From positions 1 through 45,197 of the forward strand of contig JAIKXN010000234.1 of NCBI GenBank assembly GCA_024684055.1: 45,197 nucleotides of DNA. The letters run 5' to 3'. Under the pieces are notes generated by a model. That model worked only from the letters and a program-made list of their open reading frames with translations. It was not told the origin of the DNA and did not search any database. This DNA comes from Lachnospiraceae bacterium (GTDB lineage: Bacteria; Bacillota; Clostridia; Lachnospirales; Lachnospiraceae). The first letter of the stretch is position 1. Each line of letters opens with the position of its first letter. Positions 1,676 to 26,511 of this stretch are shown one piece after another. A program made the translations under genes and the position numbers.

Positions 1676-2704
1676 TCAGGCTTTTTTCTTCTTTGATCTG
1701 CGGCTTAATACTACGCTCTGTAAGAGAATGAAGAAGCAAAGCATTCCGCCTGTTGTGATACTCTGCCACCAGGGATCGTTAAGTCCGCTGGAAACAACTA
1801 TCTTTTTAATCGTGGTAAGTGTGATCGTACCGAAGAATGTTCCGAATACGTTACCTACACCGCCTGTAAGAAGGGTACCGCCGATGATCGATGAAGCGAT
1901 TGCGTTCATTTCCATTCCGGCAGCGTTTGTTGCATTTCCGGCTCCGGTATGCATCATAAATACAAATCCGGATATACCGCTGAGCAAACCGCTTAATATA
2001 TAGCTTATGAATCTTGTCATTTTGACATTGATTCCGAGCATAAGTGCACTTGTCTGGTTTCCGCCGATCGCGTAAAATCCGCGGCCGAGGCGGTGGAATT
2101 TAAGTAAGAGGAAAATTAATACCAGACAGACAAGTGCAACAACTACTCCAAGTTCAATTCTCGCAGGTACGAGATTTCCGTTTTTGGCTGTATAGCCAAG
2201 CCAGGGAATAACTATTTTTATGTCTCTGAATTTTGAAAATGCTTCGTGTTCGACTTTCTGAGGGTTAACCGAAAGGATGGTTGTCATGCCTCTTGCGAAG
2301 AACATTCCTGCGAGTGTTACGATGAAAGGCTGGATTTCAAGGTAACTGATCAGGAATCCCTGAATCACACCGAATGCAATTCCGATTCCAAGCGCAAGAG
2401 CAACTGCAACAAAAATGTTTCCGCCCTTGTTAAGGTAAAGAATGCAGCTCATTACTACAAGTGATGTTACGGCACCAACGCTGATATCAATTCCGCCGGT
2501 GATCATGACTATCGTCAGACCGCAGGATACTATGATAAGACTCGCGTTGTCATTTAACATGTCGAATACCTGCTGTGCGTGTAAAAATCCGCCTTTAAGC
2601 AAAAGCATCGCCAGCAAATACATTACTACGAAAATACAGATTGTAATTGTCATCAGAAGCTGTGTATCGGTAAGCGGCTCCCTGCGAAATTTTTTCTTTT
2701 CCAT
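1676..2704 (-). CDS. yjfF: Sugar ABC transporter permease, YjfF type
   Basis: This is a 342-residue polytopic protein of the branched-chain/ribose permease family (BPD_transp_2), resembling YjfF of the Escherichia coli galactofuranose importer. Visible signs are about ten hydrophobic segments, the family stretch VSCGLTIVMITGGIDISVGA near residues 55-80, and FIVTLAGMFFARGMTTIL near 125-145. The C-terminus is a short basic tail (RRSKKKKA). It starts one base after the other permease gene ends and is the last gene of the operon, followed by a strong terminator. Two different permeases in one system imply a heterodimeric channel, as in YtfT/YjfF. The substrate, probably a furanose sugar, is inferred from homology only. 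Confidence 0.88.
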   Translation of the reverse strand: MEKKKFRREPLTDTQLLMTITICIFVVMYLLAMLLLKGGFLHAQQVFDMLNDNASLIIVSCGLTIVMITGGIDISVGAVTSLVVMSCILYLNKGGNIFVAVALALGIGIAFGVIQGFLISYLEIQPFIVTLAGMFFARGMTTILSVNPQKVEHEAFSKFRDIKIVIPWLGYTAKNGNLVPARIELGVVVALVCLVLIFLLLKFHRLGRGFYAIGGNQTSALMLGINVKMTRFISYILSGLLSGISGFVFMMHTGAGNATNAAGMEMNAIASSIIGGTLLTGGVGNVFGTFFGTITLTTIKKIVVSSGLNDPWWQSITTGGMLCFFILLQSVVLSRRSKKKKA

Positions 2705-2705
2705 A

Positions 2706-3782
2706 CTATTCCGCTCCTTTCGCTACTGCAGGTTTTCTGTTCTTTATATTATTCATCAGTTTTGAAAACTTAGCCTTGATAACCGGTGAACCTATAACAA
2801 CAAGAAGAATGATTACTACAGCTTTATATGCTTTTACGTCTGTTGATGAAACTTTCATTGCGTAAAGTGTTATGGTAAGCATCTGAATAACGTATGCACC
2901 GATAATACTTCCGCTGATCTTAAACTTGCCGCCGCCAAGGTTGTTACCGCCGATGGCAACTGCAAGGATTGTATCCATTTCAACATCCAGAAGGAGTGTT
3001 TCGTGGTTGATAAGTCCGAGACGGCTTACGCCGATCGTTCCTGCAATCGCTACACATACGCCAAGGATAATGAATGATAAAAGCTTGATAAATGTTGAGT
3101 TAATTCCGTTAAGTCTTGCTGCGCTTCCGTTGATACCTACCGACTGTGTAAAAAGTTCAAGTGAAGTAAAATGGAATACCAGTTTGAAAACTATTGCAAC
3201 AAGCACAACTATAAGTATCGGAGTCGGAATGGGGATACCAGGTATGAAACTTCCGATTGCATTTATGATCGGGCTGTCAACCGTAGGTGTTGCACCGCCG
3301 TTAATCCAGTAAGCAATTGAACGTCCGCAGGTATAAAGGATCAGCGTCGCGATCATCGGCTGAATCTTAAATACCGAAACGAGAGTTCCGTTGAACGATC
3401 CGAAGATCATTGCTACCACACAGGCGAAAAGAAATGCTGCGATAACGGTAACACCGTTAATGTTGGGTGAAGATTTAAGTATCTTTACAAAAGCACTTCC
3501 CGCAATAGCTGCTGCCGCACCGACACTGATATCCTGTCCGCCGCAGGCTGCAGTTACAAGCGTCATACCCATTGCAAGAATCGCAAGTTCGCTCGCACCG
3601 TTAATGATACTTATTAGGTTTCCGGAAAGAACCAGATTACCTTCATTGTTGTGACTTAATGCAATACTGAAGAAAGCCGGGTCTCTGATGAGGTTAAAGA
3701 TCACCAGAAGGCAGATAGCTATGATGGGAATCGTAAGCTGGCCAAGTCCGCCTTTAAAGATTTTTTTGAAATTATCCTTCAT
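2706..3782 (-). CDS. ytfT: Sugar ABC transporter permease, YtfT type
   Basis: This 358-residue membrane protein is the partner permease of the same transporter and belongs to the BPD_transp_2 family. It carries the family stretch LAILAMGMTLVTAACGGQDI near residues 65-85 and IQPMIATLILYTCGRSIAYW near 135-160. The glycine-rich segment AVAIGGNNLGGGKFKISGS near 270-290 is typical of the coupling loop region. Its start codon overlaps the last eleven bases of the upstream ATPase gene, so translation is probably coupled. The C-terminus is hydrophilic and basic. Its place between the ATPase gene and the second permease matches the E. coli ytfQRT-yjfF order. Confidence 0.88.
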   Translation of the reverse strand: MKDNFKKIFKGGLGQLTIPIIAICLLVIFNLIRDPAFFSIALSHNNEGNLVLSGNLISIINGASELAILAMGMTLVTAACGGQDISVGAAAAIAGSAFVKILKSSPNINGVTVIAAFLFACVVAMIFGSFNGTLVSVFKIQPMIATLILYTCGRSIAYWINGGATPTVDSPIINAIGSFIPGIPIPTPILIVVLVAIVFKLVFHFTSLELFTQSVGINGSAARLNGINSTFIKLLSFIILGVCVAIAGTIGVSRLGLINHETLLLDVEMDTILAVAIGGNNLGGGKFKISGSIIGAYVIQMLTITLYAMKVSSTDVKAYKAVVIILLVVIGSPVIKAKFSKLMNNIKNRKPAVAKGAE

Positions 3783-5289
3783 TTTTAGACTCTCCTCCCG
3801 CTATGGTTTTCATAACCTGTGCCTGATTAAGATCTTTTCCTTTAAGCTCGCCTACAATGTGTCTGTCTCTCATTACGATAAGACGGGAACATGTACGAAG
3901 CATTTCTTCAACTTCGGAAGAAATAAATGTTACGCTCACACCGTCTTCCGCAAGTTTAAGGACAAGTTTCTGAATTTCAAGTTTTGTTCCGACGTCGATA
4001 CCTCTTGTCGGTTCATCCAGAATAAGATAATCCGGATGTGTCAGAAGCCATCTTGCAAGAATAACCTTCTGCTGGTTACCGCCGCTCAAAGAACCGATTG
4101 GTGTTTCGCGGCTTGCTGTTTTGATATTTAAAACTTTGATATATTCATCAGCAAATGCTTCCGCTTCGCTTCTGCTTATCGGTTTAAAGAAGCCCTTCAT
4201 AACCTGCAGTGCGAGAATGATATTCTCTCTTACGCTTAAGTCTGCTATGATACCGTCTCTCTTTCTGTCTTCTGCAAGATATCCGATACCATGCTTCATG
4301 GCGTCGATGGGTTTCGTGATTTTTACATCTTCCCCTTTTATTTTAACGGTACCGCCGTTAACCTTGTCGGCACCGAATATAGCCCTTACACTTTCGCTAC
4401 GTCCCGAGCCGAGCAAACCTGTAAATCCGTTAACTTCGCCTTTGTGAATTTCAAAATCAAAGGGAAGCGCGTCGCTGCTCGAAAGAGACTTGGCTTCATA
4501 AAATACTTCACTTTCAGCTGTCTGTTTTTCCTCGAATTCTCCGAGAGAACTGAGTTCATCCAGCTCCTTACCGATCATCTTGGCTACGAGTTCCACCTGA
4601 GGAAGTTCTTCCGTCAGGTATTCTCCTACAAGTTCACCGTTTCTTAAGACCGTTATACGATCGCATACCTCATAAACCTGTTCGAGGAAATGAGTTACAA
4701 ATATAATTCCTACACCCTGACTCTTCAGATCTCTCATGAGACTGAAAAGCATGTTAACTTCGTTATCATCAAGAGATGATGTCGGTTCATCAAGAATAAG
4801 AACCTTACATTTCATATCCACCGCACGTGCAATCGCAACCATCTGCTGAACTGCCAGCGAACAGCTTCCGAGCTGCTGTGTGCTTCTTGCCGGTATTCCG
4901 AGATCGTTAAGAATTTTTTCCGCACGTTTTTCATAGTATCTGTGACGTACAATAAAACTTTCTTCTCTTCCGATAAACATATTCTCGGCAACGGTAAGGT
5001 TGGGACAGAGCGTGATTTCCTGATAAACGGTACTTATACCTATGTTCTGTGCATCCTGCGGTGAGCGGATGTTTGCACTGTTGCCGCTTATGATTATCTC
5101 TCCGTCATCCATCTGATAAACACCCGTAAGGATTTTGATCAGTGTGGATTTACCTGCGCCGTTTTCTCCCATAAGAGCATGAATCTCACCTTTTCTTAAA
5201 GTAAAATCCACGTTGCTTAATGCCTTAACCCCGGGGAAAAGCTTATTTATATTTCTCATTTTAAGCAAGCAATTTTCCTGCATAGCCAA
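3772..5289 (-). CDS. ytfR: Sugar ABC transporter ATP-binding protein, YtfR type
   Basis: This 505-residue protein is the double ATPase of a carbohydrate importer (CUT2 class). The first nucleotide-binding half has Walker A GENGAGKST near residue 42 and Walker B VLILDEPTSSLD; the second half has the signature LSGGNQQK and Walker B YLILDEPTRGID. The N-terminal stretch NKLFPGVKALSNVDFTLRKG is close to YtfR/RbsA/MglA. The CUT2 class has a degenerate Walker A in the second half, which fits GLLGSGRSE here. A GGAGG-type site sits just before the ATG. The gene is separated from the binding-protein gene by about 200 bases that contain a strong hairpin. Confidence 0.93.
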   Translation of the reverse strand: MAMQENCLLKMRNINKLFPGVKALSNVDFTLRKGEIHALMGENGAGKSTLIKILTGVYQMDDGEIIISGNSANIRSPQDAQNIGISTVYQEITLCPNLTVAENMFIGREESFIVRHRYYEKRAEKILNDLGIPARSTQQLGSCSLAVQQMVAIARAVDMKCKVLILDEPTSSLDDNEVNMLFSLMRDLKSQGVGIIFVTHFLEQVYEVCDRITVLRNGELVGEYLTEELPQVELVAKMIGKELDELSSLGEFEEKQTAESEVFYEAKSLSSSDALPFDFEIHKGEVNGFTGLLGSGRSESVRAIFGADKVNGGTVKIKGEDVKITKPIDAMKHGIGYLAEDRKRDGIIADLSVRENIILALQVMKGFFKPISRSEAEAFADEYIKVLNIKTASRETPIGSLSGGNQQKVILARWLLTHPDYLILDEPTRGIDVGTKLEIQKLVLKLAEDGVSVTFISSEVEEMLRTCSRLIVMRDRHIVGELKGKDLNQAQVMKTIAGGESKNEG

Positions 5290-5428
5290 TCCTCCTTATA
5301 CAATTTCACCGGATAAAAATATTCGGTGTCTTTGCATATTTTTGCACTAGAGTTTTCCGTACATTCCGACCGGGTTTGATGTAGTCTCCCCCGGCTTTCG
5401 TGTATAACCTTTTTACTAAGTGCTTCAT

Positions 5429-5472
5429 TAAAAAGCGCAGCCCGGGCTGATTCTCTTACAGCCCGGCTGCGC
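5429..5472 (-). terminator. Intra-operon hairpin between binding protein and ATPase genes
   Basis: A GC-rich inverted repeat with arms of about 14 bases (5435-5449 and 5459-5472; one extra base in one arm) is followed on the minus strand by TTTTTAA. It lies directly after the binding-protein gene and about 150 bases before the ATPase gene. This is the usual shape of a leaky terminator or mRNA-stabilising stem that gives more binding protein than membrane parts. Confidence 0.8.
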
Positions 5473-5491
5473 CGTTCGGTCAGTTAATTAA

Positions 5492-6553
5492 TTATTCACC
5501 TAAACCGTAAGTTTCAATATCTGCATCTGTAAGAGTTTTTGCGTCGAAACCTTTTTCTTCATTGATGATCTTCTTTGAAGAAGCTGTTGTCTTGCCCTGG
5601 ATAAGATCGCTGATGATCTGTGCCTGGAAAGGTGAGCACTGTCCGTCATAGTTCCATGCGCCAGCCTTTAACTCTCTTAAAGCCCACTTGTTGCAGTCAA
5701 AGCCCATTACGATAACTTTGCCGTCTACACCATGAGTGATACCTGCTTCGTCAAGTGCTGCTACAGCGCCTTTAGCCATACCGTCGTTCTCTGCGTAGAT
5801 TACGTTGAAATCTTCTTTGCTGTTAATAACTGATTCAACGATCTTCTTAGCTTCTGCTTCATCCCATGTAGCTGTCTGCTGAACAACCTTTTTCATCTTG
5901 CCTGATTCGAACTGAGCATCAAGAGCACCTGTACGTCCGATCTGAGCATCTGAACCCATAGCACCCTGGATATGGATTACATTGTACTCGTCAAGGTTCT
6001 GGTCAAGTAACCACTGAACTGCTGTTTCGCCTTCTTTGCTCATGTCTGAAACAACTGCTGCTTCATAAAGACTTTCATCAACATCGATCATACGGTCGAA
6101 GAGATAAACCTTAATGCCTGCTTCCTGAGCTTTCTTAAGAACATCGTCCCATCCTGTTGTCTCTGCTGCAGAGATAAGAAGATAGTCAACGCCTTCTGTG
6201 ATGAATCCCTGAGCTGCCTGAAGCTGCTCGTCGTTCTTTAAGCTGTAAGCTGTCTTTAATTCGTAACCGTTATCTGCAGAGAAAACTGCTTCCATGTCTT
6301 TTACGTTAGCTTCACGATAGCCTGATTCTGAAGGGGGGTTGTTAACAACTCCGACTTTGATTGTTCCGCTTGCAGGTGTTTCTACTGCAGGAGCCTCGTC
6401 TACTGTAGTCTCAGCTACTGTTTCGGGTTCGGTGCTTGCAGGAGCGGGTGTAGAAGTTGTTGTTGTAGTACCGCCTGATGAACACGCGCTAAATAACATT
6501 GTCATCATAAGTGATCCGGCCAAAAACATTGATCCTAATTTTTTCTTAATCAT
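5492..6553 (-). CDS. Sugar ABC transporter substrate-binding lipoprotein
   Basis: This 353-residue protein is the binding component of the adjacent importer. Residues 1-25 form a lipoprotein signal with lipobox FSAC at about residues 21-24, followed by a long Thr/Pro/Glu-rich linker to about residue 65. The rest is a type I periplasmic-binding domain (Peripla_BP_4): IKVGVVNNPPSESGYREANV, then DYLLISAAETTGWDDVLKKA, VYLFDRMID and VIYAENDGMAKGAVAALDEA. It lacks the exact GFSQxGSES motif of E. coli YtfQ, so the ligand may differ. GGAGG lies eight bases before the ATG. It is first in the transporter operon, behind its own likely promoter, and ends shortly before a strong hairpin. Confidence 0.9.
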   Translation of the reverse strand: MIKKKLGSMFLAGSLMMTMLFSACSSGGTTTTTSTPAPASTEPETVAETTVDEAPAVETPASGTIKVGVVNNPPSESGYREANVKDMEAVFSADNGYELKTAYSLKNDEQLQAAQGFITEGVDYLLISAAETTGWDDVLKKAQEAGIKVYLFDRMIDVDESLYEAAVVSDMSKEGETAVQWLLDQNLDEYNVIHIQGAMGSDAQIGRTGALDAQFESGKMKKVVQQTATWDEAEAKKIVESVINSKEDFNVIYAENDGMAKGAVAALDEAGITHGVDGKVIVMGFDCNKWALRELKAGAWNYDGQCSPFQAQIISDLIQGKTTASSKKIINEEKGFDAKTLTDADIETYGLGE

Positions 6554-6590
6554 GTTAATTATCCTCCTTTTTCGTCTGTGCGACTGTTTG

Positions 6591-6618
6591 ATTGTATGTT
6601 ATCGCAACACTCTTCCAA
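6591..6618 (-). promoter_or_regulatory. Likely promoter of the sugar transporter operon
   Basis: On the minus strand TTGGAA (6613-6618) and TACAAT (6591-6596) are separated by 16 bases. They lie about 40 bases before the start of the binding-protein gene and downstream of the terminator of the sensor operon. This fits a separate transcription unit that the AraC-type regulator could switch on. Confidence 0.45.
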
Positions 6619-6657
6619 GGTAAATCGAGGTTGATTTTGATTTGGTTGAAAATAATA

Positions 6658-6690
6658 TTAAAAAAAAACCGTTCTTTTACGAACGGTTAA
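6658..6690 (-). terminator. Terminator of the sensor/regulator operon
   Basis: The minus strand shows AACCGTTC, a short loop and GAACGGTT, followed by a run of T. It begins nine bases after the stop codon of the response regulator gene, a typical intrinsic terminator. Confidence 0.88.
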
Positions 6691-6698
6691 TTTTCATT

Positions 6699-7955
6699 CT
6701 ATTCAGGTTGATTATGATACCGCGTGCGGTATTCCGAGGGAGTAATTCCCGTATTTTTCTTAAAGATATAACTGAAGTAATGAGAATCGTTATATCCTGT
6801 TTCCAGTGCGATCTGAGAACTCTTTATATTGGTTGTGCGAAGAAGTTCTTTTGCCTTGTTGATTCTTAAATGAATAAGGTACTCGGTAAATGTCATGCCG
6901 CTGTGCTGCGAAAAGACTGTCGAAAAACGGCTCTTGCTCATGTTCACTGCCTTCGCCACATCCGAAAGCATAAGGTTCGGATTCGAGTAATTCTGCGACA
7001 TATAAAGCTTCGCATCATTTATTATTGAAGGTACCTGTGAATCATCCGTTACATCACCCATTTCCCTGACGCCGAGAATGATGGCCTGTTTGTCTTCTTT
7101 TTCCACAAGCAGATGACGTATGTGTCTTGCGGTTTTAAAGCTCTGCAGAATGCATTCCGGGTTATCCACGATTTCTCCGATACCAACACGGATTCCGCTG
7201 CATTCGGCTCTTTCGAGTTCCCTGACCAGAGACGTTGCAAAAGCGTATGCTCTTTCTTCGGTATCTTCTGATGTATCTCCGAGAACAAGAAGTCTGGTTC
7301 CGGTTCTGCTCGCCGATGCATGTACTATTCCGTCGCTTCCTTCTGCAAGCTGTACTGCTGCCTCCTGGCCCGTACCGGTAGGTGAAAAAGCCGCATCAAC
7401 AACACAGTAAAAAGGTGCGGGAACAGGGCATCCCATCGAGGCCAACTGCTTAAGAACGTTGTGTGAATCCTCAACTGCGGTATCGTCCGTAAAAAGCGAA
7501 CCGATAAGTTTTTCCTTTAAGAACTTGCCGTTATCCTCCATTCTTGCACGAAGACTTGCAGCATGTTCTAGAGTTTTTCTTTCATCTTTTAACTGAAGAC
7601 TGACCTTATCAAGCGCTTCTCTGAGATCTGTGGAATTAATGGGTTTTAAAAGATATTCTCTGACACCTAACTGAATACACTGACGCGCATATTCGAATTC
7701 GTCATAACCGCTTAAAACGATTATTCCGATCCACGGCATCTGACCGCGAAGGATTCGGCAGAGTTCAAGCCCGTCCATAAAGGGCATTTTGATATCGGTA
7801 ATAACTATATCGGGATTGGTATCCCGGATAATCGGAAGCGCCATCTCTCCGTCGGGTGCTTCGCCCACAAGAGTGTAAGGCGTATCATCCCAGGGAAATG
7901 ATTCTCTGATTCCTTCTCTTATTACAATTTCATCATCAACCAGAAATACTTTCAT
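6699..7955 (-). CDS. Response regulator, YesN type with AraC DNA-binding domain
   Basis: This protein of about 418 residues is the output part of a two-component system. Residues 1-120 are a receiver domain with acidic pair DDE (7-9), phospho-acceptor Asp54 in VITDIKMPFMDG, and Lys in YLLKPI near 104. A middle domain without a named match follows. The last 100 residues are an AraC-family double helix-turn-helix (LSDVAKAVNMSKSRFSTVFS, then SSQIALETGYNDSHYFSYIFKK). The ATG at 7955 is preferred over an upstream TTG because GAGGAG sits about ten bases before it. It overlaps the end of the kinase gene by 20 bases. The nearest downstream target is the sugar transporter operon. Confidence 0.93.
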   Translation of the reverse strand: MKVFLVDDEIVIREGIRESFPWDDTPYTLVGEAPDGEMALPIIRDTNPDIVITDIKMPFMDGLELCRILRGQMPWIGIIVLSGYDEFEYARQCIQLGVREYLLKPINSTDLREALDKVSLQLKDERKTLEHAASLRARMEDNGKFLKEKLIGSLFTDDTAVEDSHNVLKQLASMGCPVPAPFYCVVDAAFSPTGTGQEAAVQLAEGSDGIVHASASRTGTRLLVLGDTSEDTEERAYAFATSLVRELERAECSGIRVGIGEIVDNPECILQSFKTARHIRHLLVEKEDKQAIILGVREMGDVTDDSQVPSIINDAKLYMSQNYSNPNLMLSDVAKAVNMSKSRFSTVFSQHSGMTFTEYLIHLRINKAKELLRTTNIKSSQIALETGYNDSHYFSYIFKKNTGITPSEYRTRYHNQPE

Positions 7956-9405
7956 TCTCAAATATCTCCTCTTTTGTTCTGCAGGGTACCTTAAAGCTTA
8001 CGGTCGTACCGTCTGCATTGCTTTCTATTTTTAATCCGTCCGAAACATTGTAATAAAGACGGATACGCATATTGACGTTGACCAATCCGAAACCGCCGCC
8101 ACCGCCCTCACTGACCGAAGGCTGGCCTATCTTCATTCTTTCATTAAGTTCACGAAGCTGTTCGCTGCTCATTCCGCAGCCGGTATCCTTTACCGAAAAT
8201 GACAGAAAACCGTCTTCCATTTTGGCGGATACTTTTATCGTACCGCCGCCTCTTTTTATCTTTATTCCGTGATAAAGAGCGTTTTCGATAAGGGGCTGAA
8301 GAAGAAGTTTTAAAATATAATACTCGCCTATTTCGTTGGGAATGTCGATCTCATATTTCATGATATCCCTGTATCTTGTCTGCTGAATAGTGAGATATCC
8401 TTCGATATGTTTCTTTTCCTGACTGATGGGAATCCAGTCAGCACCGGACGAAAGGCTGATTCTGAAAAAGTCGCTCAGTGCACTCGTTAACTGAATAACC
8501 TCATCCTTCTCTCCGGCTTCTGCTTTCCAGACAATGGCATCAAGTGTATTATAAAGGAAATGCGGATTGATCTGCGCCTGAAGAGTTCTGAGTTCCGCCT
8601 TTCTTAAATTCCTTGCGTCAAGCTCACTCTTTTTCATCATGGCTTCGAGGTGATCCGCCATGGTATTTACCTGCTTGGTAAGGTTTCTTAATTCCGTAAC
8701 ATCCGTATCATTTAATCTCGCATCAAGCGTTCCTTCAGCAAGAAGTTCCGCAACGTTCTCAAGTCTTTCAATCGGCTGCCTGATAAAAGCTGCCGTAGTC
8801 TTAACAGTCCTGTTTCTGAACCACAAAGACATAATAACGATCAGCACTTCCATTACGGCGGTAACGATGATAACGATACCGAGACTTACGCTCATTCTTG
8901 CCGTCGAATTGATTTCCTGAGCGATATAATCGTTTAACATGCTGTCAACAAGTGCGGCAACGTCTCTGACTTCGACAAGTACGGCTTCATTTTCGACTAC
9001 GGGAACTTCGTTGTATATATTATCCCTTATGCGGTCCACGTAGTTTTTAAGTGTTTCCATGGTTCGACCGGCAACCATCAAAGATAACTGATTTTCCTTC
9101 CCCGTTCTCTCCGTGATTGTTTCGATTGTCTCGTCTACTTCCTGAATCTTTACGTATATGTTGCTTTCGGGAAAAGTATCCCTGCCGCTGATAATATTCC
9201 ATGCAGCTTCCGGAATTTCAACCGCAACGACTGTTTTCAGATTGGTGATCGTTTCCATTCTCTGAATCGAGCTGTGGTATTTCCATGCATAAAAAAGCAT
9301 CAAAACCAGACTTATAATGATGGGGATAACGAGCATCAGCACAATTCTGTGGCTTAGATCGTTTATTTTTCCGAGAATGCTTTTTTCTTTTTTGATTCTT
9401 TCCAT
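7936..9405 (-). CDS. Sensor histidine kinase, YesM/LytS type
   Basis: This 489-residue membrane kinase has a membrane segment near residues 20-42, an extracellular sensor region to about 165, a second membrane segment near 170-195, and a HAMP-like linker. The His_kinase (PF06580) motif QINPHFLYNTLDAIVWK lies near residue 280, with the histidine in NPHF as the likely phosphorylated residue. The C-terminal ATPase domain shows LLLQPLIENALYHG (N box) and VKDTGCGMS plus a glycine-rich GGGGGFGLVNVNMR. It starts ten bases after the lipoprotein gene ends and overlaps the regulator gene, so the three form one operon. It probably reads ligand occupancy of that lipoprotein. Confidence 0.94.
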   Translation of the reverse strand: MERIKKEKSILGKINDLSHRIVLMLVIPIIISLVLMLFYAWKYHSSIQRMETITNLKTVVAVEIPEAAWNIISGRDTFPESNIYVKIQEVDETIETITERTGKENQLSLMVAGRTMETLKNYVDRIRDNIYNEVPVVENEAVLVEVRDVAALVDSMLNDYIAQEINSTARMSVSLGIVIIVTAVMEVLIVIMSLWFRNRTVKTTAAFIRQPIERLENVAELLAEGTLDARLNDTDVTELRNLTKQVNTMADHLEAMMKKSELDARNLRKAELRTLQAQINPHFLYNTLDAIVWKAEAGEKDEVIQLTSALSDFFRISLSSGADWIPISQEKKHIEGYLTIQQTRYRDIMKYEIDIPNEIGEYYILKLLLQPLIENALYHGIKIKRGGGTIKVSAKMEDGFLSFSVKDTGCGMSSEQLRELNERMKIGQPSVSEGGGGGFGLVNVNMRIRLYYNVSDGLKIESNADGTTVSFKVPCRTKEEIFENESISG

Positions 9406-9415
9406 TCGACTGTCC

Positions 9416-10444
9416 TCAATAGCCTCTCGGTTCTATTTTTGAAGTATCCTGTTCATCGCTGAACACTACTTCCATCGGATGAATAACCGGTTCAACTTTT
9501 TCTCCTGCTTTGAGTTTGATCGCCGTCTCCATAACTTCTTTTCCGAGTTTCGGAGTGCATTCAACCACGCAGTTTATCTTTCCTTCTTTTAAAACATCAA
9601 TGGCTTCCTGACCACCGTCAATGGATATGATTATAACATCCCTTCCCGGTACGTATCCCGCTTTTTCTATCTCGGGAAGTGCACCGAGGGTCATTTCGTC
9701 ATTGTGACTGTATACAACATCTATTTCATCTCCGTAGGTTTCCATGAGATATCTCATGCATTCTGCGCCGCGGCTTTTAAGGAAGTCGCCGTCAATACTT
9801 TCGAGTATGTGCATTCTTTCATCTTTGGCGATGGTATCGGCAAATCCCGCCTGACGCTGTCTCATGGGAGTGGAATTTTCGGTTCCGGTAATCTCTACGA
9901 TATTTACTTCCGTAAGTCCGATACGGTCCGCTTTTCTGATCAGATATTCAGCAGCCATTACACCTTCTTCGTAAAAGTCTGCACCGATAAGACAGGTAGT
10001 AAGACCTTCCGTTTCCGTACTTATGTCTCTGTCGACAAGAATAACGGGAATTCCGGCGTCCTTTGCTTCCATAAGAACATTGTCCCAGCCGTCTTCAACT
10101 ATAGGGGAAAAGGCAATAACATCAACTTTATATGCTATAAAACGTCTTATTGCATCAATCTGGTTTTCCTGTTTCTGATTTGCGTTTTCAAACATCAGAT
10201 TCACACCGTAATTCTCAGCCTGCTGCTCGATATCGGTGGTATTTCCGATTCGCCATGCGCTCTCGGAACCGATCTGACTGAACCCGAGAAGAATATCGGT
10301 ATCCTCTTTCTTATCGCCGGAATTAACGCAGCCCGCAATAAAAAAAGCCGCCAGTAATATGCTGAGGAAACCTGAAATTTTTCTTATTCTGTTTGATGTT
10401 CTTTTGCCGGTATCGGAATGATTTTTCCAGAGAAAATTTTTCAT
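9416..10444 (-). CDS. YtfQ-like sugar-binding lipoprotein linked to the sensor kinase
   Basis: This is a Peripla_BP_4 protein of about 342 residues. It keeps the motifs of E. coli YtfQ: GFSQIGSESAWR, then KQENQIDAIRRFIAYKVD, and DGWDNVLMEAKDAGIPVI followed by LVDRDI. The N-terminus is basic, then hydrophobic, ending in lipobox FIAGC, so it is probably anchored outside the membrane. No permease or ATPase gene follows; the next genes are the kinase and response regulator. Its likely job is to present the sugar to the kinase. ATG 10444 is preferred to ATG 10462 because the predicted promoter leaves almost no leader before 10462 and a G-rich stretch precedes 10444; this choice is uncertain. Confidence 0.87.
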   Translation of the reverse strand: MKNFLWKNHSDTGKRTSNRIRKISGFLSILLAAFFIAGCVNSGDKKEDTDILLGFSQIGSESAWRIGNTTDIEQQAENYGVNLMFENANQKQENQIDAIRRFIAYKVDVIAFSPIVEDGWDNVLMEAKDAGIPVILVDRDISTETEGLTTCLIGADFYEEGVMAAEYLIRKADRIGLTEVNIVEITGTENSTPMRQRQAGFADTIAKDERMHILESIDGDFLKSRGAECMRYLMETYGDEIDVVYSHNDEMTLGALPEIEKAGYVPGRDVIIISIDGGQEAIDVLKEGKINCVVECTPKLGKEVMETAIKLKAGEKVEPVIHPMEVVFSDEQDTSKIEPRGY

Positions 10445-10471
10445 AAATAACCACGCCCCCATGTTGTTAAT

Positions 10472-10580: not shown

Positions 10581-10581
10581 C

Positions 10582-10612
10582 AAAAAGGTAATCCGTAAAG
10601 GATTACCTTTTT
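10582..10612 (-). terminator. Terminator after the XRE-PurM gene, probably bidirectional
   Basis: AAAAAGGTAATCC and GGATTACCTTTTT form a near-perfect stem around a loop of about four bases. Because A and T runs flank both sides, it can end transcription in both directions. It lies about 30 bases after the XRE-PurM stop codon. Confidence 0.85.
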
Positions 10613-10639
10613 AATTACTAAAACTCAGTAAATATATTT

Positions 10640-11890
10640 CTATAACCAATTAAGTCTCTTCTCAAACTCAACCTTGTTTTCGCCTTTTTCCATAACTCCG
10701 ATTTCATAGCAGTCATAAAACTTACCGATGTGTTTCATGACTTCTTTCTTGTCTTTCTGCGAAGTAACAACTATGAATCCGACACCGCAGTTGAATGTGC
10801 GAAGCATTTCTTTGTCGCTGACGTTTCCGGTGTTACGGATGTATTTGAAAATGTTCAAAAGTTTAATTTTAGAAAGATCGATTTTAGCACTTAATCCGTC
10901 GGGAATAACTCTGCAAAGATTACCTTCTATACCGCCGCCCGTGATGTGTGCCATTCCGTGAAGCACTTCTTTTTTAAACAAATCTTTGATGGATTTATAG
11001 TAAGGCGTGTGCGGCTTCATTATCTGCTCTATAAATGTAATTCCATCGATTTTATCAAGTTTGATCTGCGGATTTTTATCCATAAGAAGTCTGACAAGCG
11101 AGTAGCCGTTTGTATGAAGGCCATTGGATGCTATGGCGAGAACCGCATCGCCTTCTTCTATTGCTGAACCGTCAATTACCTTTTCTCTTTCAACAATACC
11201 TGCAATGCTTGAAGTAAGAACGTAAACACCGGAATCAACTACGAGAGGCTGGATTGAAGTTTCGCCTCCGACAAGCGAACATTCGTTTTCTCTGCATGCA
11301 TCAGACACGCCTTTTACAAGGGTTTTAATCGTATCTTTTTCAGCGTTTCCGCAAACGATTGTATCGAGAACCGCAAGAGGTTTTGCACCCATAACAACCA
11401 CGTCATTTACAAGATGATTAATCATGTCATGGCAGATGGATTCGGTATATCCGTATTCGATTGCAAGCTTCTGTTTAGAGCCGGGTTCTTCGGATTTAAG
11501 AGCAAGAACAGGATTCTCAATTTCAGGAAATTTAATATCATATAAAGAAGCAAACGGTCCGAGTCCGTTTAAAACTCTTTTGTCTTTGGTTTCAAGACTT
11601 TTGGCCATTTCTTTTTTGATAGTATCGGTATATGCAATATCTATTCCGGCCTTGCTGTATGATAAACCGTCAGCTTCCTTCTCACTGCCTTCGAGAATCT
11701 CATCAACCGTTACATCAAGAACAGTGGCCAGATCTTTGATGATTTCGATGTTAGGAAATGTTGTTCCGTTTTCCCATTTCGAAATGGCCTGAAAAGACAC
11801 ATTCAGTTTCTCTGCAAACTGCTGCTGAGTCAAACCCATGCCCTTGCGCTTTTCCCTTATGAACTTTCCGACTTTAATACTGTCAAGCAT
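10640..11890 (-). CDS. XRE helix-turn-helix / PurM-like (AIR synthase family) fusion protein
   Basis: This 416-residue protein joins two domains. Residues 5-65 are a Cro/C1-type helix-turn-helix (LTQQQFAEKLNVSFQAISKW). Residues 77-416 are a full-length PurM-like domain: SYSKAGIDI, VNDVVVMGAKPL (161-172), SLVGGETSIQP, GLHTNGYSLVR (257-267), AHITGGGIEGN (314-324) and RTFNCGVGFIV. PurM makes aminoimidazole ribotide in purine synthesis. The usual DGVGTK motif reads EEPGSK (134-139), and GGETAEMPG is also changed, so catalysis may be weakened or lost. A regulator that senses a purine-like ligand or ATP is one reading; an active PurM with an added DNA-binding domain is another. CGGAGG precedes the ATG. 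No purine genes are nearby. Confidence 0.88.
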   Translation of the reverse strand: MLDSIKVGKFIREKRKGMGLTQQQFAEKLNVSFQAISKWENGTTFPNIEIIKDLATVLDVTVDEILEGSEKEADGLSYSKAGIDIAYTDTIKKEMAKSLETKDKRVLNGLGPFASLYDIKFPEIENPVLALKSEEPGSKQKLAIEYGYTESICHDMINHLVNDVVVMGAKPLAVLDTIVCGNAEKDTIKTLVKGVSDACRENECSLVGGETSIQPLVVDSGVYVLTSSIAGIVEREKVIDGSAIEEGDAVLAIASNGLHTNGYSLVRLLMDKNPQIKLDKIDGITFIEQIMKPHTPYYKSIKDLFKKEVLHGMAHITGGGIEGNLCRVIPDGLSAKIDLSKIKLLNIFKYIRNTGNVSDKEMLRTFNCGVGFIVVTSQKDKKEVMKHIGKFYDCYEIGVMEKGENKVEFEKRLNWL

Positions 11891-11970
11891 TTTGAAAACC
11901 TCCGATATATTTTTGACGAAGTGTTTTTCAGTTGTATTTTTCCTGCCGCTTTGTTTCCTTCGTTGTCTTC

Positions 11971-12000
11971 ATATTAGCAAGAGTTTTCGTCTTCAAACAA
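11971..12000 (-). promoter_or_regulatory. Likely extended -10 promoter of the XRE-PurM gene
   Basis: On the minus strand TTGTTT (11995-12000) and TAATAT (11971-11976) are 18 bases apart. TGC directly before TAATAT gives an extended -10. The predicted leader is about 75 bases. Confidence 0.45.
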
Positions 12001-12029
12001 TAACTCTCTCGGTGAATATGAAGCAGGAA

Positions 12030-12046
12030 TTCAACCTGTGGTTGAA
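12030..12046. promoter_or_regulatory. Perfect palindrome upstream of the XRE-PurM promoter
   Basis: TTCAACC and GGTTGAA flank the three bases TGT. The site lies about 30 bases upstream of the predicted -35 of the XRE-PurM gene, where an operator or activator site could sit. On the plus strand a partly overlapping CAACCT/AGGTTG stem is followed by six T, so a weak plus-strand terminator is the alternative reading. Confidence 0.4.
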
Positions 12047-12116
12047 GGTTGTTTTTTAATTTTCAATAAAATATATGAAACTTTTACCGCGTTTTTTCTA
12101 ATAGTCAGGCTTCGTT

Positions 12117-21883: not shown

Positions 21884-23005
21884 TTAAAGCGTATTCAGAT
21901 AATTCATGAAATTGTTCTTATTCTCAAGAGCGCTTGTAGTGGGACGACCGAGATCGTCTCTTGCTCCTATCGAGCATTTAACCTCAATAAGCGAAAGTGC
22001 ATTTCTCTCTTTGGCTTTTTTCAATTCCTCATCGAGACTTTCGAAGTCCTCGCAGCTTACAGCATATACGTAACCGCATGCTTTCGCTATGCTTACGACA
22101 TCAATTTTTGAAGCAACCGTAGGCATTCCGCCGACCGTTTCATGTGCGCCGTTATTGATAACCACATGCACAAGATTTGAGGGTTTGTTTGCACCTATTA
22201 CCGCCATTGAACCCATATGCATAAGGAGTGCGCCGTCCCCGTCTATGCACCAGATTCTGCTTTCAGGCTTGTTAAGCGCCACACCGAGCGCAATCGAAGA
22301 ACTGTGTCCCATCGAACCCACGGTAAGAAAATCATATTTATGGGGCTGAGCATTCTCTTCCCTGATCTCAAAGAGTTCTCTTGAAGCTTTTCCGGTGGTC
22401 GAAACGATTGGATCTTCTCCCGAAACTTTTGTAATATGTCTTATGATCTCTTCCCGGATCATTGTGTTTTCATTTTTATAGACAGTCTTTCCGTCATACG
22501 CGAGGGCACCTTTTCTTATTACAAAAGCAACGTCCTTTCCCGATTCGAGTGTGCCCTTAAACCTTTCCATTGCCTCGGATACTTCTTCATCGGTTGTTTC
22601 TTTTCCGATAATGAAAGACTCTATGCCCATATCTTCAAGAAGTTTTACCGTAACTTCTCCCTGATAAATATGCTGAGGTTCATCATGAATTCCGGGTTCG
22701 CCTCTCCATCCGACTATAAAAACGCAGGGAATAGCATAAACCTTGTCATTGAGTAAAGAAGCAACGGGATTGATGATATTTCCCTCGCCGGAATTCTGCA
22801 TATAAACAACCGGAACCATGCCCGTCGCAAGATGGTATCCTGCTGCCAGCGCGGTACAGTTTCCTTCGTTTGCCGCAATGATATGGTGCTTTGCGTCTAT
22901 ACCGAATTTATTAATCAGAAAATTGCAGAGAGCTTTTAACTGACTGTCGGGAACGCCCGTATAAAAATCCGAACCTATTATTTCATATAATTTTTCTGCC
23001 TGCAT
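21884..23005 (-). CDS. aepY: Phosphonopyruvate decarboxylase
   Basis: This 373-residue thiamine diphosphate enzyme converts phosphonopyruvate to phosphonoacetaldehyde, pulling the unfavourable PEP mutase reaction forward. The N-terminal half has DFYTGVPDSQLKALCNFLIN and ANEGNCTALAAGYHLATG with the catalytic-type Glu. The C-terminal half has the cofactor motif GDGALLMHMGSMAVIG to NNGAHETVGG. Length matches known Ppd proteins, which are shorter than other decarboxylases of the superfamily. It follows the PEP mutase gene after 119 A/T-rich bases and is the last gene of the phosphonate group. Confidence 0.95.
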   Translation of the reverse strand: MQAEKLYEIIGSDFYTGVPDSQLKALCNFLINKFGIDAKHHIIAANEGNCTALAAGYHLATGMVPVVYMQNSGEGNIINPVASLLNDKVYAIPCVFIVGWRGEPGIHDEPQHIYQGEVTVKLLEDMGIESFIIGKETTDEEVSEAMERFKGTLESGKDVAFVIRKGALAYDGKTVYKNENTMIREEIIRHITKVSGEDPIVSTTGKASRELFEIREENAQPHKYDFLTVGSMGHSSSIALGVALNKPESRIWCIDGDGALLMHMGSMAVIGANKPSNLVHVVINNGAHETVGGMPTVASKIDVVSIAKACGYVYAVSCEDFESLDEELKKAKERNALSLIEVKCSIGARDDLGRPTTSALENKNNFMNYLNTL

Positions 23006-23124
23006 TTTTTACCTGCTTTTTCTTTTTTTGTATTTATCAAAAAAATCACTTTTTGATCATATAAAAAATATCTTAAAGAATTATTTCGATAGATGTATTT
23101 CTTTTTCCGAATGGGTATAAATAA

Positions 23125-24420
23125 TTAAATTTCGTCAATCAAAGTAATGATGTCTTTGATCGGCAAAAGCCTGTCATCAACTTCCTTGGCTCTGTGATAT
23201 TTAAGAATATCCTCTGCCGTCTTCTGCATTGCGGGGAACGCAGCCCTGGTAAGCTGATTGGCGTATATTACAATCTTTACGCCGTGTGCCGCGAGTTCTT
23301 CTTCTGTAATCGAATTAAAGGAACTGGGAACGACAACTATGGGCGTTGTCTTATCGGTTTCCCTGAATTTATCGCAGAATTCCAGAATTTCATCGGGATC
23401 TTTTTTTCTAGAGTGAATCATGATTCCGTCGGCTCCGGCTTCAACGAAAGCCTTCGCACGTTCTAAAGCATCATCCATACCTTTTTCGAGGATCAGACTT
23501 TCAATTCTGGCAATGATCATAAAATCATCCGTAAGCTGTGCTCTTTTGCCTTCTCTGATTTTCTCGGAAAATTCTTCTATCGATGCCTGTGTCTGTTCGA
23601 CCTCGGTTCCGAAAAGGCTGTTCTTTTTCAGTCCCTTTTTATCTTCTATGATAACTGCGGAAACACCCATTCTTTCAAGGCTTCGTACCGTATATACAAA
23701 GTGTTCCGTGAGTCCGCCGGTGTCTCCGTCAAAGATGATCGGCTTCGTGGTTACTTCCATGATATCGTCAATTGTACGGAATCTGCTTGTCATGTCAACG
23801 AGTTCAATATCGGGTTTTCCTTTTGCTGTCGAATCGCAAAGCGATGATAACCACATTGCATCGAACTGATCGAGATGTCCGTCTTTTTCCACAACCGTCT
23901 TTTCTACAATAAGTCCGGTAAGTCCGGAATGTGCTTCCATTGTTTTTACTATCGAGGTCATCTCAATAAGACTGCGAAGACGTTTTCTTCTGTACTCGGG
24001 CATACCGAGTTTTTCTTTTAACTGAAGGTCGATTTTTCTGACCTCTTCATTGTATGTATAGGGAACATCGATAAGCTTTCCGCCGTATTCCGAAAGAAGT
24101 TTTTCAACGTGATCCCTAATGACTCTTTCAGGTCCCGACGTCCAGTTATCGCCGTGAATCACATAGTCAGGATGAATTAGATTAATCACATCCGTGTAAA
24201 GCATATCGTTTTGAAGTATTACGTCTTTGACGCCATCTATGCTTTTATATAATTTCATCCTTTCTTCCTGATCTACGGTAGGAAATTTGTTGTATCTGAT
24301 AAGTGCTTTATCCGACAGACATCCCACTGTAACCTCGCCGAGTCCGGCGGCTTCCTTTATGATATTAAGATGTCCTTCATGAATTACATCGGTGCAAAAA
24401 CAGGTATATACCTTTGCCAT
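23125..24420 (-). CDS. aepX: Phosphoenolpyruvate mutase with N-terminal nucleotidyltransferase domain
   Basis: This 431-residue fusion has two parts. Residues 1-130 are a cytidylyltransferase-like fold with the HxGH motif as HEGH (14-17) and a later HGDNWTSGPE. Residues 150-425 are PEP mutase, which makes the C-P bond: DGDTGG (231-236) and the diagnostic EDKKGLKKNS (259-268), where EDKxGxxxxxS-type sequence separates mutase from isocitrate lyase relatives. The mutase half appears complete. The N-terminal domain might activate a phosphonate or polyol with a nucleotide, yet another cytidylyltransferase of a different fold is in the same gene group. AAGGAG precedes the ATG. Confidence 0.95.
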   Translation of the reverse strand: MAKVYTCFCTDVIHEGHLNIIKEAAGLGEVTVGCLSDKALIRYNKFPTVDQEERMKLYKSIDGVKDVILQNDMLYTDVINLIHPDYVIHGDNWTSGPERVIRDHVEKLLSEYGGKLIDVPYTYNEEVRKIDLQLKEKLGMPEYRRKRLRSLIEMTSIVKTMEAHSGLTGLIVEKTVVEKDGHLDQFDAMWLSSLCDSTAKGKPDIELVDMTSRFRTIDDIMEVTTKPIIFDGDTGGLTEHFVYTVRSLERMGVSAVIIEDKKGLKKNSLFGTEVEQTQASIEEFSEKIREGKRAQLTDDFMIIARIESLILEKGMDDALERAKAFVEAGADGIMIHSRKKDPDEILEFCDKFRETDKTTPIVVVPSSFNSITEEELAAHGVKIVIYANQLTRAAFPAMQKTAEDILKYHRAKEVDDRLLPIKDIITLIDEI

Positions 24421-24444
24421 CTGCCTTCTCCTTTTCGGTCTGAA

Positions 24445-25578
24445 TTAAGCGTTGTATTTAACGGGCACACAAACTCCGGTAACTTCCAGTGCTTCCCTGA
24501 ATACTTTAAAGAAATCCTTTATATCTCCTTCGTCAATAGCACCCAGGGCACAGAGTCTGAAAGTATTCGTGGTGCTGATTTTTCCGGGGTAAATCGTAAA
24601 ACCCCTTTCGTAGCAGTAATCATGAACTTTCTCGAAACTCCAGTTTTCGTCATCAGGGTAAACAGCCGAAGATACAAGTCCGGCCCTGAGTTCGGGTTTA
24701 ATAACCTGTCTGAATCCGAGCTCTTCGAGGCCGTCGTTAATGGCATTAAATACTCTTGTATGTCTTGCCCATTTGGCTTCTTCGCCTTCTTCCCAGTATT
24801 CCTTCAACGCCTGAATCGTTGAGTAAATTGTCTGAACAGGAGGGGTAAAATGCATCTCTCCCGTTTTCTCAAAATATTCATACTGAAGATACAGATTGCA
24901 GTAATAACTTCTCTTCGGATACTTTGCACTCTCTTCGATTATTTTCTTATTTCCGACTACAAATGAAAGACCTGTAAAAGCCATGAGACCTTTTTGTGCA
25001 CTTGCCATACAGAAATCAATATTGTCTTTTTCGATATCGATTGGTCTCATCGCATAGGTACTCGTGGTATCAACAGTAAATACGGCATTGTACTTATGTG
25101 CAAGAGCTCCGATTTCCCTGATCGGATTAAGGATTCCGGTGCCTGTTTCATTGTGCGTGGTATGAACAAGTGCAATATCCGGATTTTCAATAAGCGTCTT
25201 TTCTACCTTCTCAAGATCGGGTATCTCGTCCACGGGAAATTTAAGATTAATGAAGGGCAGACTGTAATACTCGCATATTTCAGCTGCTCTCATGCTGTAT
25301 GCACCGTTGTTTACAATGAGTACTTTCTTTCCTTCCGGTAAAAGAGAGTTGATGCATACATCGATATTTATCGTTCCGGATCCGCAGAAAAGAACGGATG
25401 TATATTTATTCAAATCGCCGTGAACGATCTTCACAAGGTCTTCTCTTAATGTTTTCATAAGACCTGCGAATTCTTTTTCTCTCGGGCAGATATCGGGAAC
25501 CACCTGAGCGTATTTAACCGTATCAGTGGTTGTCGAAGGTCCCGGATTAAGTAAAATATTTCTTTTTATGCTTTCCAT
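24445..25578 (-). CDS. phnW: 2-aminoethylphosphonate transaminase
   Basis: This PLP-dependent class V aminotransferase of about 377 residues interconverts phosphonoacetaldehyde and 2-aminoethylphosphonate (AEP). It begins NILLNPGPSTTTDTVKYAQV, as is usual for PhnW, has FCGSGTINIDVCINSLLPEG near residue 70, and the PLP lysine in ASAQKGLMAFTGLSF near 185. Next to PEP mutase and the decarboxylase, it should work in the biosynthetic direction (AepZ role). The ATG at 25578 is chosen because AAAGG lies a few bases upstream; an in-frame TTG at 25626 would overlap the upstream gene. It is preceded by the cytidylyltransferase gene with a 25-base gap. Confidence 0.94.
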   Translation of the reverse strand: MESIKRNILLNPGPSTTTDTVKYAQVVPDICPREKEFAGLMKTLREDLVKIVHGDLNKYTSVLFCGSGTINIDVCINSLLPEGKKVLIVNNGAYSMRAAEICEYYSLPFINLKFPVDEIPDLEKVEKTLIENPDIALVHTTHNETGTGILNPIREIGALAHKYNAVFTVDTTSTYAMRPIDIEKDNIDFCMASAQKGLMAFTGLSFVVGNKKIIEESAKYPKRSYYCNLYLQYEYFEKTGEMHFTPPVQTIYSTIQALKEYWEEGEEAKWARHTRVFNAINDGLEELGFRQVIKPELRAGLVSSAVYPDDENWSFEKVHDYCYERGFTIYPGKISTTNTFRLCALGAIDEGDIKDFFKVFREALEVTGVCVPVKYNA

Positions 25579-25603
25579 TTCATGCCTTTCTTTATATGTC
25601 CGC

Positions 25604-26494
25604 TTAAACATCATATGATTTATCAATAGCCTTTAATTCACTGAAGGTGTCGATTTCAACTATATCCTCATCCCTGCATTCGCATACTTCCACTTTGTAA
25701 TTGTTCTTTTTATATACAAGCGGAACTTGCTCCCAGTATCTTTCCTTGCCTCCGGGGGATTCGAATACATCGGCAATGTCCTTCTTGAGTTTCCTGCCGT
25801 CTTCCCTGCTCCAGTATGATATTCCGACCATCTGCCAGCAGTCCGTACCTCCGACCTTTTCTTCGGTGATTATTCCATCCTTAACGCTGAAGCACCAGTC
25901 ATCGGTTCTTTCTTTCTTTATGGCAAGGAAATCCGAGGTGTAATGATACTTTGTTATAATAGACGGGTTGGAAATAAGAAGATCTGCCTCGAATACATAC
26001 GCATTGGATAAAAGGTTCTTTGCTACAAGCGCCGAGCCTATATTGTTGGCTTCATTATATCCCGGATTTTCAAGAAACTTTATCATTGGATACTTATACA
26101 AAAGCTGATCGAATTCCTCAGCAAGATATCCTCTTACGACATAGATTTCTTCTATGCCCGCCTGAATACAGGCATCTATCAGCCTGTCAATAATTCTTGT
26201 CCCGAAAACTCTGACCAGGGGTTTGGGTGTGTTAAGTGTTATAGGAACCAGTCTTGAACCGAATCCCGCAGCGATAAATACTGCTCTTTTAACGCTGTAT
26301 GGTTCCAGTGCGGTAAGTCCTTTTTGGGTAATTTTTCCGTCTTTAATGAACTTATTGTCTATAAGTTCGTTTACAACCTTGTTAACCATACCGAGCGAAT
26401 ATCCCGATTTTTCTTTTAAATCTCTCTGAGTCATAGACTCGTCCGATACAGCATATATGCTTAATAAATCAAACTGTTTTCTCGTTAAATCCAT
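25604..26494 (-). CDS. Winged-helix / nucleotidyltransferase fusion, probable AEP cytidylyltransferase (PntC/LicC-like)
   Basis: This protein of about 296 residues has an N-terminal winged helix-turn-helix (residues 1-65; MTQRDLKEKSGYSLGMVNKV). A LicC-like sugar-nucleotide-type transferase domain follows: FIAAGFGSRLVPI near 75-86, NTPKPLVRVFG, and FEADLLIS with the metal-binding Asp. The LicC/PntC group forms CDP-choline or CMP-AEP. Because the next genes make AEP and no choline genes are seen, CMP-AEP is the likely product. ATG 26494 is preferred over GTG 26506, which overlaps the GGAG ribosome site. It heads the phosphonate operon behind a long inverted repeat, so the helix-turn-helix may control its own operon. 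Confidence 0.88.
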   Translation of the reverse strand: MDLTRKQFDLLSIYAVSDESMTQRDLKEKSGYSLGMVNKVVNELIDNKFIKDGKITQKGLTALEPYSVKRAVFIAAGFGSRLVPITLNTPKPLVRVFGTRIIDRLIDACIQAGIEEIYVVRGYLAEEFDQLLYKYPMIKFLENPGYNEANNIGSALVAKNLLSNAYVFEADLLISNPSIITKYHYTSDFLAIKKERTDDWCFSVKDGIITEEKVGGTDCWQMVGISYWSREDGRKLKKDIADVFESPGGKERYWEQVPLVYKKNNYKVEVCECRDEDIVEIDTFSELKAIDKSYDV

Positions 26495-26511
26495 TTTGTT
26501 CTCCACTCATT

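Follow-up and report, generated by a model that had tools for sequence, protein, structure and literature searches.

Proteins that fuse a helix-turn-helix (HTH) domain to an enzyme are a known kind. NadR joins a Cro/C1-type HTH to enzyme domains of cofactor and nucleotide metabolism (NMN adenylyltransferase), and Bacillus PurR, which controls many pur genes, is built from a winged helix and a PRTase-like enzyme fold. Regulators of the Cro/C1 type usually bind a palindromic site together with a second site over the promoter. Bacillus PurR is described as a transcription factor that senses a signal of the purine pathway (PMC8789054). AIR synthase (PurM), an enzyme that acts in de novo purine synthesis, is reported to occur in all variants of the pathway and to be active as a dimer (PMC5919458). 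Its active-site residues are given as D65, D94, and H190 in one source (PMC3261824) and as D94, H247, T249, and R259 in another (PMC5919458). In the titles and abstract starts of the open-licence literature, we found neither an HTH-PurM fusion nor a PurM branch with EEPGSK in place of DGVGTK; both the PurM-type HTH-enzyme fusion and the EEPGSK branch appear to be new.

The fusion described here, XRE-PurM, is encoded in a stretch of 45,197 nucleotides from a Lachnospiraceae bacterium (contig JAIKXN010000234.1; "the window") at positions 10640 to 11890 on the minus strand, stop included, and has 416 amino acids and an ATG start. A first-pass annotation had marked an open reading frame at 10640 to 11890 and gave no strand; the frame stands, the gene lies on the minus strand, and the plus-strand frame over the interval contains 9 stops. 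The description in that annotation of an HTH directly before a complete AIR-synthase-like domain is borne out within one protein. Pfam HTH_3 (Cro/C1-type) covers residues 11 to 65 (11696 to 11860, minus strand; E 9e-17; 61.3 bits against a gathering score of 23), and residues 77 to 402 (10685 to 11662, minus strand) form a PurM-like domain with both halves complete, scoring 275.3 bits with NCBIfam TIGR00878 (purM; equivalog cut-off, 236.35); Pfam places AIRS at 151 to 232 and AIRS_C at 245 to 405. All PurM motifs quoted in that annotation are present. Modelled with AlphaFold2 from an alignment of the family alone, the protein reached pLDDT 81 and pTM 0.70, with weak regions at residues 73 to 88, 101 to 118, and 209 to 222; adding three viral relatives together with canonical PurMs from viruses raised the values to 90.5 and 0.81. 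The top PDB matches of the model were the PurM structures 5VK4 and 1CLI (TM 0.90 to 0.93 by target). Downstream of the gene lies a terminator-like hairpin of 14 pairs with a T run (10581 to 10613, minus strand), and no purine gene was recognised beside it, as had been noted before.

We tentatively read XRE-PurM as a neofunctionalised AIR-synthase paralogue that would act as a ligand-sensing autoregulator beside the housekeeping PurM, a reading drawn from sequence comparison that we hold to have close to an even chance. If it is true, the PurM fold would serve as the ligand sensor of a regulator.

Elsewhere in the window, a 2-aminoethylphosphonate synthesis cluster (21884 to 26506, minus strand) encodes phosphonopyruvate decarboxylase, PEP mutase, and AEP aminotransferase. 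Its PEP mutase has an extra N-terminal part of ∼145 aa that looks like a cytidylyltransferase, and the cluster also holds a 300-aa protein that resembles an HTH plus a nucleotidyltransferase and has no NCBIfam match. At 1676 to 10462 (minus strand) lies a sugar ABC transporter with a binding protein like YtfQ, below the cut-off of that model. It is accompanied by another binding lipoprotein, unlike the first, and by a two-component pair made up of a histidine kinase and an AraC-type response regulator (names mostly by reading). The additional lipoprotein may serve this pair as its sensor.

A second PurM branch and its active site

In XRE-PurM, EEPGSK (residues 134 to 139; 11474 to 11491, minus strand) stands in the place of DGVGTK, with E134 at the position of D65 in E. 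coli PurM. When homologues with both domains were collected and compared at this position, as had been suggested, the change proved to be fixed: E134 and E135 are found in 81/81 fused sequences and P136 in 80/81. The reported alteration of GGETAEMPG was likewise confirmed. The window protein reads GGETSIQP (residues 208 to 215; 11246 to 11269, minus strand) for GGETAEMP, so that I213 occupies the position of E144. A second change confined to the fused branch is S79 (11654 to 11656, minus strand), where E. coli PurM has K10. Residue 213 is invariably I in the 81 fused proteins, and residue 79 is S in 79 of them and G in 2.

A PurM branch with EEPGSK for DGVGTK exists outside canonical PurM, and it includes members that have no HTH. 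Three of these HTH-less relatives lie in IMG/VR viral contigs of 195, 104, and 83 kb, the only ones among the best 80 of 591 viral loci with the DNA pattern used for EEPGSK; five more came from genome searches (G178, G152, G684, G521, and G562). In a phylum sample of 398 genomes, scores fell into two sets, at least 467 bits (the window's own genome, G521, G562, and G684) or at most 316. A tree of 57 rows (18 of the 81 fused proteins, 8 HTH-less, and 31 canonical) gave 100/100 support to the split between the EEPGSK type (26) and canonical PurM (31) and placed the 18 fused rows in one 100/100 clade inside the EEPGSK clade, with a bootstrap that is not fully settled and a warning of long branches that meet. 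Given this single fused clade, the gain of the HTH seems to have occurred once. Canonical and EEPGSK rows have 49 positions in common, and 22 positions distinguish the EEPGSK branch. Sixteen of the 22 are fixed differently in the two groups (among them D65E, G66E, V67P, T69S, A89N, M90H, C91L, and A143S), and 6 are fixed in the EEPGSK branch only. The change of DGVGTK had been put forward as the mark of a regulator; it is present but not specific, because the whole branch has it, including HTH-less proteins that seem to stand in for PurM.

An AIRS-domain search (PF00586) found no canonical PurM in G178, G152, G684, G521, or G562, which are 73 to 96% complete and come from three families rather than five independent lineages. 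The other AIRS-domain proteins of these genomes are HypE-, SelD-, or PurL-like, the PurL identity of two G684 proteins being taken from Pfam domains and sequence reading. One gene row of G684 contains an hpt-like gene, purE, a gene for a 545-aa PurL-like protein, purF, purN, and purH, with no purM. Where canonical PurM is missing, the HTH-less members may thus be working AIR synthases. The EEPGSK lineage has lost an aspartate that is kept elsewhere, occurs in large viral contigs, and may replace the standard enzyme. The four HTH-less proteins that were tested all score above the NCBIfam purM equivalog cut-off. Since that model scores them and the fused protein alike as purM, a second type is hidden under the name, and automatic annotation with the equivalog model conceals it.

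Several of these loci have features of their own. The 545-aa PurL-like protein of G684 (locus L321, 1465 to 3099), between purE and purF, has one recognisable AIRS and one AIRS_C domain; a further, long PurL-like frame is found elsewhere in G684, on a different contig. In G152 (L292, 1384 to 4479), the HTH-less EEPGSK PurM gene is followed on the same strand by genes for an RpiB-like isomerase and a purine nucleoside phosphorylase, and the PurM copy carries a repetitive insert of roughly 70 to 80 aa. Of the three viral loci (L183, 4120 to 7014; L184; and L185), the one on the 195-kb contig has its EEPGSK PurM gene close behind a glutamine-dependent NAD synthase gene, another has a macro-domain protein 3 kb away, and another an adjoining calcineurin-like phosphoesterase.

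The first-pass annotation would have taken XRE-PurM for the housekeeping enzyme with an added domain if, besides normal activity, the genome held no other purM. A search of the genome found a canonical PurM of 341 aa, with DGCGTK and GGETAEHPG, whose gene (G000:C235) clusters with purE, purN, and purD (neighbours named by sequence reading). Among 35 of the 80 orthologue host genomes, picked across the identity range and searched with TIGR00878, 34 have a second PurM or a divergent PurM-like protein. This is a canonical PurM above 420 bits in 25 and, in 9, a divergent protein below the family cut-off in a frame of 392 to 428 aa (108 to 113 bits as a whole in four; two pieces of 51 to 65 bits in five). 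Two of these nine were aligned, and both keep DGAGTK, GGETAD, and D65. In G095 (locus L092) alone was no PurM other than XRE-PurM found; either the assembly is incomplete, or the fused protein has to take the part of PurM in this host. With the window's own genome included, XRE-PurM is accompanied by a further PurM or PurM-like protein in 35/36 genomes, and G095 is the exception to XRE-PurM not being the only PurM of its genome. The strongest sign of a different job for the fused form is the contrast between the genomes with HTH-less members, in which no canonical PurM was found, and the fused hosts, which nearly all have another PurM or PurM-like protein; the two sets were searched with different models (PF00586 for the former, TIGR00878 for the latter).

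Of the published set, D94, H190, H247, T249, and R259 are kept in XRE-PurM and only D65 differs, being E in 81/81 fused proteins, so the full set is not present. At 55 positions that canonical and HTH-less PurMs have in common, the fused branch departs at two. K10 is found in 28/31 canonical, 7/8 HTH-less, and 0/18 fused proteins, and it is not universal in PurM either (the G684 HTH-less protein has E); for E144, the counts are 31/31, 8/8, and 0/18. Conversely, at none of 60 positions common to canonical and fused proteins do at least 7/8 HTH-less proteins agree on another residue, in a comparison where the HTH-less set (8) is small and more diverse and the two tests are not fully alike. With the active-site residues mostly kept and K10 and E144 replaced, the pocket seems to be under selection, though for a somewhat different job. 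D65E and E144I may nevertheless be compatible with catalysis.

These results have to be weighed against the main alternative, itself unlikely, in which XRE-PurM would be an active second AIR synthase with its own repressor, the HTH holding the gene off until FGAM builds up and substrate fills the active site. Such an enzyme would fit the retention of every published active-site residue but D65, the score above the equivalog cut-off, the five genomes in which HTH-less relatives occur and no canonical PurM was found (one of them with purE, purF, purN, and purH but no purM), and G095, where XRE-PurM is the only PurM found; an operator found at its own gene alone (see below) would also be more natural for an enzyme than for a protein that regulates other genes. 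It is harder to reconcile with the replacement of K10 and E144, which canonical and HTH-less PurMs both keep, and with a fused form that nearly always sits beside another PurM.

We consider it improbable that XRE-PurM is instead a self-controlled, ATP-dependent enzyme on a different substrate, for example one closing imidazole-ring-opened purine nucleotides; this closure is the same chemical step as that of AIR synthase, and the substrate is guessed. The 22 distinguishing positions around a kept catalytic core would accord with a new substrate, as would the HTH-less genes that have RpiB and purine nucleoside phosphorylase as neighbours in G152 and NAD synthase in the 195-kb viral contig. However, the neighbours vary among genomes, and the occurrence of the HTH-less form without canonical PurM in five genomes points to AIR synthesis itself.

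A conserved palindrome upstream of the gene

The first-pass annotation had singled out the stretch from 11890 to 12060, which does contain a conserved palindrome. This 17-bp element, TTCAACCACAGGTTGAA, lies at 12030 to 12046 (minus strand) and is proposed as an operator, O1. GTTATTG at 11998 to 12004 (minus strand), with the TC that lies 11 bp before it in other loci, is a possible second operator, O2. By sequence reading, a −35-like hexamer, TTGTTT (12000 to 11995, minus strand), starts with the TTG of GTTATTG, and a −10-like TAATAT (11971 to 11976, minus strand) lies 18 bp after the hexamer; this promoter was not among the matches of a simple promoter scan. In 75 aligned promoters, the palindrome (TTCAAC-N5-GTTGAA) ends 25 bp before GTTATTG, with one spacing in 71 and one base off in 4. 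The copies comprise 29 exact ones, 30 with one, 12 with two, and 4 with three mismatches. TC occurs 11 bp before GTTATTG in 75/75, and TATNAT 21 bp after it in most. The 6/81 promoters outside the alignment lack GTTATTG (L049, L075, L080, and L091) or are too short (L063 and L092). Scored with the palindrome matrix, 76/77 upstream stretches exceed the 99th percentile of 312 random ones, a partly circular result because most of these promoters went into the matrix. L063 passes yet sits under the highest random score; L091, with 400 bp of upstream sequence present, lacks the palindrome and fails.

Changes in the palindrome arms were left-only in 57 cases, right-only in 9, and on both sides in none, and this lack of paired changes points to a site bound by protein, not to an RNA stem. 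A riboswitch or other RNA stem was rejected on the same grounds and because 11880 to 12110 has no Rfam match up to E 1. A plus-strand terminator suggested by a simple scan (12030 to 12051) is disfavoured by the one-sided arm changes and the fixed promoter spacing. We infer that the palindrome is the binding site of XRE-PurM itself, and self-regulation of the gene is likely on the strength of this conservation.

Away from the gene, the palindrome is no commoner than the control. In 29 genomes picked across the identity range, own genome included, the exact palindrome occurs at 20 sites, 16 before XRE-PurM and 4 elsewhere; the reversed control gave 4. With at most one mismatch, 8 genomes contain 55 non-self sites versus 46 control sites. 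Three of the four exact non-self palindromes were viewed (one where a converging gene ends, in G068, and two within genes, in G091 and G061), along with a one-mismatch site of the own genome inside a gene and a matrix match in L065 near a contig end; none of the five precedes a recognisable purine gene. At 26 canonical purM loci (up to 1.5 kb on each side), matrix scores are at background (mean best, 6.4 versus 6.6; maximum, 11.8 versus 14.8 in 49 stretches of 4 kb), and an operator there was rejected. Operators at purine genes, as in a PurR-like regulator, were thus not found with the exact or one-mismatch palindrome or in the flanks of canonical purM.

We regard as improbable the notion that XRE-PurM controls purine genes elsewhere in the genome by way of sites that bind less strongly than its own operator. 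The notion draws on analogy with Bacillus PurR, where a former enzyme fold serves as purine-signal sensor, and on the 55 versus 46 sites of the eight genomes. Against it stand the background scores at the 26 canonical purM loci, the equal numbers of exact palindromes away from the gene and in the control (4 and 4), and the absence of a recognisable purine gene behind any of the five viewed sites.

Under the autoregulator reading, the conserved promoter architecture suggests that a dimeric PurM domain would set two HTHs on palindrome O1. A weaker site 30 to 31 bp (about three turns) away, covering the −35 hexamer, might be contacted as well, and in this way XRE-PurM would repress its own gene. 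The old active site might take up ATP and an intermediate of the pathway, FGAM for example, and the dimer so altered would then release or strengthen repression. The earlier proposal of a regulator that uses a PurM fold as sensor gains from the operator-like palindrome and from the loss of two conserved residues in the fused branch only. It loses its wider part, since the only candidate target found is the gene's own promoter and regulation of other genes was not seen. A pure regulator with no target found but itself would be odd. Since the sole operator found is its own, XRE-PurM must do something beyond setting its own level, whether catalysis, regulation through weak sites, another reaction, or the binding of a metabolite or partner.

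Spread and descent of the fused family

We kept 80 orthologues (the best 80 of 175 relatives), 72 to 88% identical to the window protein. All matches begin at query residue 1, and 79 reach residues 412 to 416 (L071 only 393). By record title, the best 80 comprise 42 Lachnospiraceae, 9 Oscillospiraceae, 5 Clostridiaceae, 1 each of Eubacteriaceae, Erysipelotrichaceae, and Muribaculaceae, and 21 without a family; one host is a named isolate, Beduini massiliensis. The possibility of two separate proteins, raised in the first-pass annotation, does not hold, and the fusion is not an accident of assembly, because the 80 orthologues, from other assemblies, carry both parts in one frame. An artefact (a chimeric contig, a contaminant, or two genes wrongly joined) is therefore very improbable, and for the fusion itself is refuted by these 80 assemblies including the isolate, even though the fusion occurs in none of 60 relatives and the own assembly has 264 contigs and 3.5% contamination. 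The adjoining comEC has its nearest matches in the window's own genus (all of the five best among 41 genomes, at 42 to 56% identity), which also led us to reject a contaminant contig.

The fusion was absent from 60 relatives of the window genome, 30 of them in the same genus, and among 391 genomes of the class a full-length match was found in the own genome alone. Because of this absence, the gene was probably acquired, or else lost in most relatives, in either case long ago. Third-codon-position identity to five orthologues is only 0.365 to 0.505 at 84 to 88% protein identity, so any transfer is old, and a recent one is not supported. Cargo of a mobile element was rejected as well, annotated phages and plasmids giving only matches below 60% identity. 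No conserved neighbour or operon partner was found over 81 loci. In 25 hosts, identity to the counterparts in the window's genome is 74 to 86% for the fused protein and 60 to 81% for canonical PurM. The two identities correlate across 300 host pairs (Spearman, 0.49), which suggests that part of the descent is vertical. Mean identity over these pairs is 81% for the fused protein versus 76% for canonical PurM, indicating stronger constraint on the former. This constraint would suit a working enzyme as well as an autoregulator; G095, with XRE-PurM and no other PurM found, also counts against an autoregulator.

Comparison with known systems

A wider account, possible though doubtful, is that an undescribed second AIR synthase lineage ("PurM2," of the EEPGSK type), present in bacteria as well as large phages and taking the place of canonical PurM in part of the genomes, may on a single occasion have yielded a transcription factor that senses a purine intermediate through a PurM active site changed at two residues. 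Enzyme, alternative enzyme, and proposed fused autoregulator make up a natural series that lets the change of role be followed one residue at a time (K10, D65, and E144).

XRE-PurM shares with canonical PurM (TIGR00878; E. coli 1CLI and N. gonorrhoeae 5VK4) the fold, the full domain, a score above the equivalog cut-off, and residues D94, H190, H247, T249, R259, E141, and K70. Unlike canonical PurM, it has E-E-P-G-S-K for D65-G66-V67-G-T69-K, replaces K10 and E144, carries an N-terminal HTH, lies outside a pur cluster, and coexists with another PurM. The divergent PurM of the Bacteroidota type (3MDO and 3KIZ) is likewise non-canonical, and nine XRE-PurM hosts have a look-alike of 392 to 428 aa; it differs in having no HTH, in the DGAGTK and GGETAD kept by the two aligned, and in a Foldseek TM of ∼0.70 by target.

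The parallel with Bacillus PurR is one of concept, an enzyme fold put to new use in sensing a purine signal, with sensing by XRE-PurM being proposed; XRE-PurM differs in combining HTH_3 with PurM and in that only its own operator was found. NadR has another enzyme fold, another pathway, and other targets. Among Cro/C1 (XRE, HTH_3) regulators, SinR and the 434 repressor share the HTH_3 domain, with weak sequence matches to their structures, whereas the C-terminal part of XRE-PurM is a complete PurM-type enzyme domain.
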